From Owenia fusiformis (Eukaryota > Annelida > Polychaeta > Sabellida > Oweniidae): DNA of 64,000 nt. Below, in pieces: positions 54,301-60,300 of this stretch. The notes beneath the pieces were generated by a model that saw nothing but the letters and a program-made list of their open reading frames with translations, made no database searches and was not told where the DNA came from. The stretch is from NCBI GenBank assembly GCA_903813345.2, contig CAIIXF020000010.1, positions 18,239,181 to 18,303,180 of the forward strand, in the 5' to 3' direction. Each line of letters begins with the position of its first letter. The first letter of the stretch is position 1. The position numbers and the translations under genes are program-made.

Positions 54301-57300
54301 GACCGCGTTTGTTACTGTACTACACTTGTGAATTATGGGGAATATGACGTCATAATGTTTACAGAAAAAACATGGTAGAGGGACATTTTGTAAACGTCAA
54401 TGAAAGTGATATTTTTTTACTTTACTAGACGACAAGAATTGCAAAAATACAAATAGAAACGTAAAATTAACATTAATTTACTAGTAAGTACGCAGTGATG
54501 TGCCGGAAACAGAGAGTTAAGCTACCACTGTCTTCAGATTTTCTTAAAAAATCATTGCTGGCGTGGTTTGGAGAAAAGATTGTAAAATGAAGCCATGATT
54601 GATGATTGTCGTCTATATGTGTATTATTAGTTTCTTCTGACTAACAAAACAATTGTAGACCTTTCCATTTGGTCAACTGTCAAAATCATATACCTCGACT
54701 TGAAACTACTGTTGACCTCGACCTTCGGTCTCTGTCAACAGTAGTGTCTCGGTTTACAGTCTCGGTATACAATTTTGCCGGTTGACCTCTGGAGAGGTCA
54801 ACAATTGTATACAATTGTAATTAAAACAAAAATATCAAGTTATATTAGCAGATTTATTCTCATTTTAACAGTAGTTGTGATTTTGAGGAACTAGAAAATG
54901 AGTGTTTTGGATATTATTTTGTACATTATTGAGGTAAATGTGTGTTTTCAAAGGGATGGTTATGTGTCTTTTTTATTGAGTGACTGTGATTGATATTTCA
55001 GCGTGAAGGCTATAGAAAGTACAAGAAAGGATGACGATACTCAGTGGCTGACATACTGGGTCGTTTACAGCGCATTCAGCCTCGTTGAATTCTTCGCTGA
55101 CATCTTCCTATTCTGGATACCCTTCTATTGGCTACTCAAGGTAATATTAAAAAAATTAAGAAATGAGCAATTTATAGATGTCTCCAAACATTCAGATTAA
55201 TAGCAAATCTCACCCAAGAAATTTTAAATGCAATTGTTTGGTCAAAATGTTAAAAATTTAGTAAAAAGTAAAATATTTCAGACATATTTTTCAATAATGA
55301 TGTCCATTTTACTATTTACTAATCTATTATCTATTGTGCTAAAGTACATGTCAGCATGATTAAACTTGGCACACATTGCATATATTTCATTTGGACAGAC
55401 CAGATTAATAGACCTGCATAATATATTAATATTAAATTCTTATCATGTACAACTTGATGTATGTTTTATTATCTGTTAGGTGGTGTAAGTTGAGTTGCAT
55501 ACTTGTAAGACTCATGTATTAAACATCTGTTGTTCAAATAGGGGGTAGGAAATTATTTTTCCTTTATATTGGAGATCTTCACAAATATCGAAACATTTTG
55601 ACTCATGTGTCAAATATTTGTTTGTCAAATAGGGGGATCGGAAGTACAGTATTTTGCCTTATATTTGGGATCCCCACATATATTGAAACACTGTGACTCA
55701 TTTGTTGAACATCTGTTTGTCAAAAGGGGGATCAAAAGTATTTTCCCTTAATATTGGGGATTCCATGTACATTGAAACATTGCGACTCTGTTAAACATCT
55801 GTCAAATAGGGAAGAGTTTTTCTAATCATCAGCAGGAGGAAATATTGAATTAGAATCATAAGATAATGTATTGTGGGATCCCTACATCATGGTAGATAGA
55901 TGTAAGTTCCAGTATTAGTCATTGGGCAAATACATACTTTATCATTTGAAGTACAATTATGTATAACCTGCACTTGAAATATGTCTAAGTAATGTTTGAT
56001 TCAATGTTTCTTATCTCATTTGATTTCTTCATTACAATTATATCATTTTTGATCAATCCAATTGCTGATAAAAATTGATAAAAACATTCAAATTATGTAT
56101 ATCATGTATAGAATGTATGAATGTATAGAATGTGAAATCACCCTCGTGTTTTTGGACTTAGTCATCTTTGTATTTGCCAAAATGATTGACGTGCACTGGA
56201 GTAATATTTTCACATGTAGAGGTCATACCAGTTAAGTTTCTGTATATGACCTCCATGTATAGAAACTTAATAACAGTACATGTTATATGAACAGAAACAA
56301 AAAGTCATTTAAAAACTTAAATTCTACTGTTTTTAAATCTCAAAAGTTTAAACGTAGGGTTGAAAGACACCGTTCATAACTGTTGTGTGTCAAAGTTTTC
56401 CAGTAAAATACAGAATACACAGAATCCATTTTGGCGGGACTGCTACAAGACTAGCCTACCCAAACAGCATTGGAGACATCGCTTAATCAAATTTTTGTCC
56501 CCTTGGGGTCAGCCTGATCTGAGGGTCTACTTTGGTTGTGCTACCAAGGTTTTTATAGACATGGACATAATATTTTTGTTTGGAAATGTCATAGAAATTT
56601 ATTTTAGGAAACCTGACCAATCACATTAACATGCATTTATTCAAGTTTCTCAAATTCACATGCATAATAACCATGACCTGTTATTTTTGAATTGTAGTGT
56701 ATTTTCCTGGTCTACTGTTTTGCCCCATTCCCCTGGAACGGCTCTAATGTGATCTACAACAGATTCATTAGACCATTCATCCTTCGCCACCAGGAAAAAG
56801 TTGATGACACACTAGATAAAATGGGCCAAGCCGGTTTGTATTTATAAATATACATGTAATGTAGCATGCAGGCGCTGTGCTTAAAGTAAAGGCCATGACA
56901 ACTAGTCAAATATGATAAAGAAATGATAAAGAAAGTGGTTTTTGTGTTATCTCTCATGATCATTGAGCAAAAGTGCTTTGTTTTAATGCAACATTGTTCA
57001 AAATAAAAATATTGTGTGTGCTTACATAAACTGTTCTCAAAAATTGTCTCAAATTTTCTTCAAAACATAATCCCACAATGACACAAGTAATTTGTTTACA
57101 AAAAGTGGATGATTCACAATTACATGTCCAGTAAATAATGTTCTTCCATGTTCTTTGCAATGTATTTGACTGGTCTTTCATGGACTTGAGAAAGACTTGA
57201 CAGCATTTTTGCACAAATAAGGCTGCTTCAGGTGAATTGTCCGTTTCAATGCCTTTTGGGGGGGGAAAACTACCAAGTGGCCAGGCTTCTCATTTACTCT

Positions 57301-60300
57301 TAACTTGCCAAAGGCATGTCTAAATGAAATTAAAATTCTACAATCCTGAAAATGAAAGACAAGACGTTTGACCGGGAGGCTTTTTGGTGGCCTGGTAGGC
57401 TGTAAACAGACAATTATTTGTATAGGCCTTAATAGAAAGTTTATGTTGCCTGTAAAAACACCTATTAACATATCACTAACATTAACAACAGTTTTGCTTA
57501 TTGTAGATGCTAGATGCATGGTATTGATTTATATTATGTTGTACTAATATTTCAAATAATATTTTCTGAGTTTGTCATGTTTTGTGACTTCTATCAAATT
57601 CTTAAAACAATATCAAAATATTCAAAAAGTTGTAGATGGATTAGAATCTGGGTCATAAAACATGACAAACAATCCTTGTTGTTACATATACATTTGTATT
57701 TTTATTTAAATGATGCATGTTTCAGTGTTTAGTTTATCCATAGATAGATCTTCACATTAGATTAACCCTTCGTTGACCATACATTATCAATATTGACCCT
57801 GAACTTGTAAAGTACATACTAGTATAAGTTCTAAATAAAATTTGAAGGGGCATTAATTACTCAGATGCGAGTAGGTAGTTACCAGTTTCGCCACCAGGTG
57901 GCTGATTCGGGAGAATTAACATGGCAGGGTATTACAAAATTCCCTTAAACTTGAATATGCATCAGTTTTAGTGGTTCACTTTTCATATTACCCTTATGTA
58001 ACTGATAGTTATACAAATTAAAATATGTCCAGTAAAAGAAAATATTATCTGCCCAACACAAGAAAAGATATTTCACTTTTTGTGGTTTTACAACATGGGG
58101 TCTATGGGGAATCTCCCCGACCTAGAAGTCTCATTTTCAAAGAAAATTAAATTTTCAAAGTTGATAAACTCTTTTCAAAACCACATTTCTAAATGTAATT
58201 TTACATGTAGATTCCAAATATGACATCAGTTTGACTGAATTGTGAGTTTTTAATGACGTAAATCAAGATTTCTACTCCCATCTGGGATATTGATTCATTA
58301 TGGCAAATTTTGCAAACTACATGTACTGTAAAACCAGGAATGTCTGTGTGTCAGACATTTGTACATAGAGCCTACAAAAGGCCCGATCATTTATCCAGAT
58401 ATTGTCAAATGAATCTTATGGTTTTAGGATTATTTTTTTTAATACTTTGGAGATCTATAATCACCATGCAAACTTTTACTGATGTTCAATGCAAATCAAT
58501 AAAGGGTTAATACATAGTTATGTGCGTTAGATGGGTGTATTAACACATTAACAATACCTTATGAGGCTTACTGTATGCCTGCATAGTTATTTTTAATTTT
58601 CTATTTTATTTTACTTATACTAGTGCTTATTCCTAATCTACTGCATGGCACCCATTGAAAACAACGGAGCAAGTTTCATCTACAGACGGTTTGTGCGTCC
58701 TTTTGTGCTCAAATATGAAGCTGAAGTGGATGAAGCTCTTGACAAAATGGGAGATTTAGCCAGTGAATGTAAGGGCAAAGAAATAAGAACTCAATAAAAT
58801 TCTGTGGAAAAATTAATACTCCCCTAATATGGGCCATTAGTAAAATTATATGACAAGTATAAACAGTAAAAATTGTTTGAGGAAAATGAAAAATTGATTC
58901 AAATGTTAATAGCCTTCTCTTGAATTTGAAGCTCTTTTCAGAGGCCCTCTTATATTTTTTTTCAAGAGGGCAGAAGCATTCATTTTCAGCAAAATCTTAT
59001 AACTTTTTGGCTCAAATACCAATTTTGACCAAAGTGATGCTTATTATGACTTAACTCGTCATGATAGTCGCGTGCCCTTTGTCTTTATCCCTCCAAATGG
59101 CAGATGAGAGGGGCTCTGGCATGCCAGAATCTACTTTAATAGGCATTCTCAAATAGTATATTTGTCAGCTATAGATATCTAGAGAGTAGTTTATCAAAGA
59201 ACATAGTTACTGTTAATTCATTCAATACATTTTTTTAGTTCTACGCACAGGAAAAACTACAGGTTGAGTTCTCTTATGTTCAGGGTTATTTTGAATTTTT
59301 TAATTCTCTGTTCAAATCCCTTTAATTGAAAATTGGTTACTTATACTTATTCATACAACTTGGCTATCTTTCTTCACTCTAATGGCATATCTAGGTCACA
59401 TTTGCTCCGAGACATCGGCCAGTGCCTGGTCAATCGCAGTATTATGTTCAAAACTGATTTCAAATTGCTTTAAATTGACCAAATTTTTTAAATCATGTAC
59501 AAGTTCTCAGGAGTTCACATCTGACCTCAAAATTGACCTTCAATTTTGAACAAATTACCCAAATCGGAGCAAATGTGACCCCGGCAATACTTTAAATTTT
59601 ATCAATGTTTTCTCAAATGGGTTTTAAGGAAATATCTTCAATTACTGGTGAAAGGAATATTATGCATGTCATTAACTCAGGCACTAAAACATTGTACTCT
59701 TGGTTTGCCCTCATGAAGTTTCAGCCAGGGTATGAAAAAAAACTGAGGCACACTTTGCTTTTGAAACACTTGAGCCAAAACTAATATTTTCTTCCATTAC
59801 ATATTCGTGTTTTTCTCCATTTTTTGCAAAAAAACATTTCACTTTTAAGCGATCGAGTCAAATATCAACATTTGTCGAAAACAGATAATGTTTATCTGTA
59901 AAGTTGATAAATAGAAATCAAAAAGGTAAAGAGGGTTTAAATCAAACATCATAATAATCTCAATTGTTTAAATATGGATACCATTACTAAGTCACACCTT
60001 ACTAAAGCTCTGCATTAGCACTAATGGCTGTTGTTTATGTTTCTACTTTAAGTTTTTTAAGGCTTCTTTTTTTATTTCAAACAATAACTCATTTTCTAAT
60101 ATAATCTTAGTGTAGTGAGGTAACATTTTCTAAAATAATTTATGTTTTTCAAAACAAATTCTCTTTCATAAGCAATTAGCATGATGGTGTAGTGGTTAGC
60201 AAGCTTACTGGTTGAGTGGGTTCATATCCCAGCAAAGAATTTTTTTCATTTTTCAACCAAAATACATTTTCTCAATCTCTTTATATTTTACTTTAAGGGT

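Follow-up and report, generated by a model that had tools for sequence, protein, structure and literature searches.

Homologous exons 4a and 4b of a REEP5/6-type gene in Owenia fusiformis are probably spliced in a mutually exclusive manner

Results

A REEP5/6-type gene with two versions of exon 4

The stretch of DNA that was analyzed (the window, 64,000 nt) contains one REEP5/6-type gene, all of whose exons lie on the + strand. The first coding exon runs from the ATG (48384–48522, 139 nt; donor TAG/GTACGT, with the slash at the exon–intron boundary) and encodes residues 1–46, with one further base that opens codon 47. It is followed by exon 2 (51911–52004, 94 nt), which ends in YPAYA plus two bases of the next codon, and by exon 3 (55002–55140, 139 nt), which reads from VKAIES to IPFYWLLK at its end and matches PF03134. 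Downstream lie two alternative exons: exon 4a (56698–56833, 136 nt; 45 residues plus 1 nt) and exon 4b (58624–58768, 145 nt; 48 residues plus 1 nt), which are separated by an intron of 1,790 nt. A weaker, in-phase alternative donor at 58763 would make exon 4b two codons shorter. The last coding exon (exon 5, 60462–60535) supplies the common C-terminus of 23 residues and the stop codon TAG at 60533–60535. The coordinates of the original prediction are correct to the base, including the boundaries at 55140 and 60462. From the spliced gene model, isoform A (with exon 4a) and isoform B (with exon 4b) are predicted to have 193 and 196 amino acids, respectively.

Relative to the curated PF03134 cut-off of 27.2 bits, isoform A scores 107.4 bits and isoform B 111.1 bits; leaving out exon 4 lowers the score to 80.1 bits, with a match that ends at residue 134. 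The match starts at residue 74 and is preceded by 73 residues with a hydrophobic stretch, called by eye as TM1. An N-terminal region with TM1 is absent from the REEP1 subfamily (PMC11455953, PMC10162974). With PF03134 above its cut-off and a TM1-bearing N-terminal region, the predicted protein has the features of the REEP5/6 (TB2/DP1/HVA22) group. A second REEP-like locus, which lies on C5, is probably REEP1-4-like. In the 498-Mb assembly, where only the best candidates were scored, one REEP5-type locus with two exon-4 copies and no processed copy of the gene were found. Four weak whole-genome PF03134 matches (E 0.25–0.55) do not resemble a REEP exon; one contains the short string PFYY-LKCF, interrupted by a stop at the hyphen. 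Two additional weak whole-genome matches have E values of 0.31 and 0.59. In keeping with an annelid rather than a mollusc, the assembly has 3 matches above the cut-off to PF16915, the annelid erythrocruorin linker; PF14830, of mollusc haemocyanin, has 0 matches, which carries little weight because its controls were silent too. Within the window there are no further exon-4 copies, the best other tblastn matches listed having E values of 0.29 (exon 4a) and 0.87 (exon 4b). A scan of viral contigs (IMG/VR) with isoform B and one of prokaryote contigs (GTDB) with an 84-residue piece of isoform B gave 3 and 54 stretches that fit a pattern, none of which was confirmed as a relative, as expected because REEP5 is an animal gene. 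Against solved structures, exon 3 alone gave no matches and isoform B just two chance-level ones, to nucleoside permease (E 0.51 and 0.53), and no Rfam match above the gathering score is present in 48,000–62,000.

Exons 4a and 4b are homologous and bear signs of coding constraint

Each of the two exons is 1 mod 3 in length and lies between an AG and a GT, with an open frame; both are entered in phase 0 and left in phase 1, in agreement with the original prediction, and their splice sites look U2-type by eye. The predicted identity of about one half over the same region corresponds to 24 identical residues among 45 aligned (53%). In local alignment the pair scores 153, and the best score among 5,000 shuffles of 4a is 51. 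A scan for mutually exclusive exons was modelled on the criteria of PMC3228551, with a cut-off alignment score of at least 15% of the self-score, and 4a and 4b were each compared with open AG..GT candidates across the whole window on both strands. On the + strand, 4b as query had 3 of 576 candidates at or above 15% and 4a as query had 3 of 652, every one of them being 4a, 4b, or the form of 4b that ends at the alternative donor; on the − strand, none of 643 and 723 candidates reached this level. The relative score of the pair is 0.55 in both directions, and that of the next candidate is 0.04. Exons 4a and 4b are thus neighbouring internal exons that are close in length, share their phase, have matching splice sites, and are free of in-frame stops, which are features of mutually exclusive homologous exons. 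According to PMC3228551, 0.56% (90/16,180) of non-exclusive exons on the Drosophila X share such features.

Exons 4a and 4b differ at 19, 7 and 34 of 45 first, second and third codon positions, a pattern that would be expected if selection maintains both exons. Neutral decay was simulated from 4b with 5,000 runs at each of four rates. Not one of the total of 20,000 kept the frame open while also having 7 or fewer second-position changes and 26 or more at third positions; with the lowest of the rates, runs would miss the third-position threshold irrespective of the other conditions. By itself, an open frame says little about constraint, because the frame also stayed open in 4 to 14% of these neutral runs.

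These results bear on the idea that one of the exons, more likely 4a, is a relic that is spliced in rarely or never. The donor of 4a (CCG/GTTTGT) ranks last among the five main donors, with a score of 4.76 by an approximate donor matrix that gives the donor of the constitutive exon 3 a nearby 5.07, and isoform A has the slightly lower family score (107.4 versus 111.1 bits). Against this idea, so few second positions differ while third positions are near saturation, the observed pattern did not arise in the simulated decays despite those that stayed open, and the frames, acceptors, and donors of both 4a and 4b are intact. A relic exon is accordingly considered unlikely.

Phase and frame allow one exon at a time

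The exclusivity proposed in the original prediction holds on phases and frame. Joining 4a to 4b shifts the frame into an early stop, as had been predicted, at codon 181. This stop begins 112 nt ahead of the last junction, and because it is upstream of that junction the joined form should be degraded. PMC5740500 names three routes to exclusivity, among them a frame shift that leads to decay. Skipping both exons shifts the frame as well, also as predicted, and the frame then ends in the last exon after 59 new residues. Phase and frame argue strongly for mutually exclusive splicing of 4a and 4b and, since the exons can sensibly be used just one at a time, the one REEP5 gene probably makes two protein forms.

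Exon 4 of the sole REEP5/6-type gene found here is therefore proposed, with a probability of roughly 0.85, to have been duplicated in tandem long ago, with both copies retained as coding and one spliced per transcript to give isoform A or B. Exclusivity would be imposed at least by frame, and splicing factors specific to a tissue or stage would presumably decide between 4a and 4b.

Besides forming an exclusive pair, 4b could be read past its donor as an alternative last exon, which would yield a truncated protein. The frame of 4b does run on to a stop at 58795–58797 that overlaps an AATAAA at 58793, 24 nt beyond the end of 4b. This AATAAA is weak evidence because the motif occurs at 4 places in 55141–60461, and the donor of 4b (AAT/GTAAGG) is a strong one that joins exon 5 in phase, which makes such a use of the exon very improbable. 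It is similarly hard to credit a three-way choice in which skipping both exons would also yield a stable short form without the helix: nonsense-mediated decay is not predicted for this form because its stop falls in the last exon, but the family domain is partly lost (80.1 versus 107.4 and 111.1 bits), and with 26 of the 59 tail residues included the product has no other domain over the cut-off.

The exchanged region spans TM4 and the start of the amphipathic helix

REEP proteins set the curvature of ER tubules. The region exchanged between the isoforms was placed using a provisional sequence of Yop1p, which fits all 8 numbered residues checked and whose T122, in an alignment made by eye, presumably aligns with the first residue of both 4a and 4b. 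On this basis, the swap extends from the T122 equivalent in TM4 into the C-terminal amphipathic helix. The original prediction had assigned it to the end of the membrane hairpin and the lead into the helix, which is upheld and may be stated more exactly as TM4 from the T122 equivalent plus the helix start. Isoforms A and B would have the N-terminus, TM1–3, the initial portion of TM4, and the C-terminal tail in common and would differ in the remaining TM4, the short loop that follows it, and the amphipathic helix.

In PMC10162974, TM4 is a dimer interface of Yop1p (F116, V123), and REEP1 I70R corresponds to Yop1p T122. Against a firm role of TM4 in assembly, cross-linking in PMC7835363 was strong through TM2 only, much less in other TMs, and absent with the helix. 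The hydrophobic moment of the helix over 25 residues is similar in the two versions (0.31 versus 0.24). Of the two consequences originally suggested, a difference in partners fares better: a difference in curvature is possible, but with helix amphipathicity so similar, self-association or partner choice is the better guess. Most likely, the swap would alter how REEP proteins oligomerise on ER tubules or which partners they engage there.

Discussion

Human tandem-duplicated exon substitutions (PMC9741552, 236 events; atlas in PMC5740500) likewise involve adjacent homologous exons. As in the pair described here, the human exons are of similar length and the same phase, encode the same part of the protein, and break the frame when included jointly, according to passages of PMC5740500. 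In contrast to the human events, the REEP5 pair is predicted here from the gene sequence, and REEP genes are not mentioned in the main texts of PMC9741552 and PMC5740500. Alternative splicing in the REEP5/6 family is represented by REEP6.1 and REEP6.2, which is tissue specific and also alters the C-terminal part (PMC5142109, in part). That case differs in that a 27-residue cassette exon 5, located after exon 4, is included or left out, rather than one homologous exon being exchanged for another, as described in the same portion of PMC5142109; the added part is called an amphipathic helix in a section of a review (PMC9437294). The OGDH exons 4a and 4b are, like the present pair, mutually exclusive at one position; their exclusivity is imposed by branch points that lie far off within the intron between them (PMC7969005).

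In line with the original prediction, which knew of no such arrangement in REEP5, literature searches found no such pair. Among the matches listed, titles and the starts of abstracts describe no REEP gene with mutually exclusive exons, and in the two papers found to name REEP5 together with mutually exclusive exons, the REEP5 passages deal with 3′-UTR length. As far as the literature was searched, this would be an ordinary mechanism in a gene that is not reported to use it.

The swap begins, by the provisional alignment, at the TM4 counterpart of REEP1 I70, a residue that is mutated in hereditary spastic paraplegia (PMC10162974). A natural pair of isoforms in which the TM4 end and helix are exchanged and the rest is constant would test which element controls REEP assembly, and if the pair were common to annelids or spiralians, splicing, and not the number of genes, would be the means by which ER shape is tuned. 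A bolder and rather improbable reading is that the pair is ancient in bilaterians, with 4b REEP5-like and 4a REEP6-like, that the vertebrate REEP5/REEP6 split fixed a prior splicing choice, and that this choice sets the REEP oligomer on ER tubules. Against provisional human sequences, exon 4b has scores of 132 with REEP5 and 104 with REEP6, and exon 4a has 115 and 122, respectively, so that the lean of 4a towards REEP6 is small.

Intron pairing and splicing-factor motifs

Pairing between introns was assessed in 8 tests on regions within 200 nt of exons, 6 on the alternative exons and 2 on control flanks of exons 2 and 3, with 40 shuffles each. The complementary intron elements envisaged in the original prediction receive no support, as 5 to 35 of 40 shuffles paired equally strongly. 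Equal or stronger pairing was found in 5 of 40 shuffles for the region downstream of exon 3 with that upstream of 4a, in 7 of 40 for the flank of 4a, in 11 of 40 for the regions downstream of 4a and downstream of 4b, and in 25 to 35 of 40 in the remaining five tests. Inverted repeats in 54900–60600 number 43 pairs, a raw count without background. Splicing-factor motifs were tested with 300 shuffles each (12 motifs in 5 introns, 60 tests). TTAGG/TAGGG occurs 6 times in the intron before 4a, with 2.4 expected (P 0.040), and TGCATG in intron 1 has a P value of 0.037; neither signal is claimed because two values below 0.05 among 60 tests are no more than chance. The TTAGG/TAGGG excess adjoins the exon pair, and much of it may stem from a local tandem array of AATAGGGG units.

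Two diverged versions of exon 4

The REEP5/6-type gene lies on the + strand of the window (C10:18239181-18303180, in an assembly of 498 Mb in 525 contigs). Its model comprises coding exons 1 (48384-48522), 2 (51911-52004) and 3 (55002-55140), the alternative exons 4a (56698-56833) and 4b (58624-58768), and a last coding exon (60462-60535) that carries the stop codon TAG at 60533-60535; the introns are GT-AG. The predicted proteins, isoform A with 4a (193 residues) and isoform B with 4b (196 residues), match the TB2/DP1/HVA22 family model PF03134 at 107.4 and 111.1 bits, respectively (cut-off 27.2). 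A second, weaker in-phase donor is present within 4b at 58763 (CCA before and GTGAAT after the junction), use of which would make isoform B two codons shorter. Upstream of the gene, the - strand holds pieces of a protein kinase gene at ~41755-45433 (HRDLKPLN and ADFGLSR motifs), which we take to be MAP-kinase-like.

In agreement with the original prediction, 4a and 4b encode the same region at about half identity: 24 of 45 aligned residues agree, and the local score of 153 compares with a maximum of 51 among 5,000 shuffles of 4a. An exon scan was built on the preconditions for mutually exclusive exons in PMC3228551, with a preceding AG and a following GT as the only donor type, equal phase, no in-frame stop, a length difference of at most 20 codons, and a cut-off of 0.15 on the global BLOSUM62 score divided by the self-score. 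On the + strand, the query 4b gave 3 passing candidates out of 576 (4b itself, its form with the alternative donor, and 4a at 0.55), and the query 4a gave 3 out of 652 (4a itself and both 4b forms). The - strand of the window gave none (0/643 and 0/723), and the best of all other candidates in the window reached 0.044.

Across 45 aligned codons, the two exons differ at 19 first, 7 second and 34 third positions; third positions are near saturation and second positions conserved. Exon 4b was put through simulated neutral decay at four rates, with 5,000 runs per rate, and in no run did the frame stay open with 7 or fewer changes at second positions and 26 or more at third positions. An open frame by itself persisted in 4 to 14% of runs, which leaves the argument for constraint to the codon pattern. 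Nothing marks either exon as a relic, and the duplication dates far back. It is unlikely to be an artefact of assembly or haplotypes, since the best DNA match between 56200-57300 and 58130-59250 (28 nt, E 0.043) falls within the exons and the best one outside them spans 17 nt (E 0.15).

Predicted exclusivity and splice choice

Joint inclusion of 4a and 4b soon meets a stop, as had been predicted, at codon 181 and 112 nt before the last junction. By the distance rule a stop that far upstream of the last junction should trigger decay, and the joined transcript should be subject to it. Skipping both exons also shifts the frame, as originally proposed; the shifted frame runs through 59 unrelated residues to a stop in the last exon, so decay of this form is not expected. 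PMC5740500 describes three routes to exclusivity, and of these only frame shift with decay is visible for this pair. The intron between 4a and 4b measures 1,790 nt. Complementary intron elements enforcing exclusion, a further suggestion of the original prediction, were not borne out, as pairing near the exons exceeded that of shuffles in 0 of 8 tests. Two of 60 motif tests in the introns fell below 0.05, one of them in the intron preceding 4a.

The intron preceding 4a also contains a degenerate tandem array (55509-55802) in which a unit of 91-95 nt is present roughly three times, and the intron following 4b contains a perfect 17-nt inverted repeat (59394-59410 and 59564-59580, 153 nt apart). 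Past its donor, the 4b frame stays open (region 58769-58798) until a stop codon, 58795-58797, that shares bases with an AATAAA; an intronic poly(A) ending after 4b is conceivable.

Predicted consequences of the swap for the protein

The predicted change to the end of the membrane hairpin and the amphipathic helix is supported by an alignment to Yop1p. Aligned by eye, the presumed Yop1p sequence reads IPFYWFLK then TVFLIY where the proteins here read IPFYWLLK then C(I/L)FL(V/I)Y, and we take T122 to be the equivalent of the first exon 4 residue; the exchange would thus start at this site in transmembrane segment 4 (TM4) and extend into the helix. This presumed sequence agrees with the eight residue numbers checked (F65, F68, W94, F116, W118, T122, V123 and S178). 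In PMC10162974, Yop1p self-associates via TM2, TM4 and other parts, TM4 contacts are placed at F116 and V123, and the spastic paraplegia mutation REEP1 I70R has its counterpart at T122. PMC7835363 assigns promotion of curvature to the amphipathic helix, but in its experiments only TM2 gave strong dimer cross-links and the helix gave none, a result that weighs against a major TM4 role in dimers; on TM4, the two papers disagree.

Over 25 residues, the helices of 4a and 4b resemble each other in hydrophobic moment (0.31 and 0.24) and in mean hydrophobicity (0.37 and 0.41). Larger differences are seen in net charge (+1 in 4a, -3 in 4b) and in the stretch from TM4 to the helix (FPWNGSNV in 4a, IENNGASF in 4b). 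Of the two effects first proposed, curvature or partners, these comparisons favor the second: the swap may alter self-association or partners rather than wedge strength.

Relation to other REEP genes and to known splicing events

Against presumed human REEP5 and REEP6 sequences, 4b gave 132 with REEP5 and 104 with REEP6, and 4a gave 122 with REEP6 and 115 with REEP5, a marginal lean. If a tree confirmed 4b as REEP5-like and 4a as REEP6-like, splicing in one gene would provide the choice that vertebrates keep in two; we consider this quite improbable.

Homologous tandem exons used singly form a well-known class; most are ancient, and many show tissue specificity (PMC9741552). Consistent with the original prediction, no such pair in REEP5 was reported in the literature searched. 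PMC9741552, PMC5740500 and PMC9013439 do not mention "REEP" in their main texts, and "mutually exclusive" is absent from a review of the REEP/Yip superfamily. The retina-specific 27-residue cassette exon of REEP6 (PMC5142109) is a different event from the 4a/4b swap. Isoforms A and D of Drosophila ReepB, drawn in PMC5576921, are a possible fly precedent.

Three queries, the PF03134 model, isoform B and the region of 4a, were run against the whole assembly, and the best candidates were scored. Among these were one REEP5-type locus, two exon 4 copies and one REEP1-4-like gene (contig C5), and no processed copy revealing a junction. One gene of each type fits the statement in PMC9804665 that every metazoan examined has a member in the REEP1-4 and in the REEP5-6 clade. 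In the C5 gene the intron lies earlier, within the Trp codon preceding VPFYYE, so of the REEP genes in this genome only the REEP5-type one has an exon that begins where exon 4 does. A nearly identical reading frame occurs in intron 2 of the REEP5-type gene (54221-54331) and adjoining the C5 gene (3015-3125 of the surrounding stretch, L003), and is probably a dispersed repeat.

The animal is likely an annelid: elsewhere in the assembly, the annelid erythrocruorin linker family PF16915 gave three matches above the cut-off at C6:27033687-27048438 (its best place, L025). The mollusc haemocyanin family PF14830 gave no match, in a test without a positive control.
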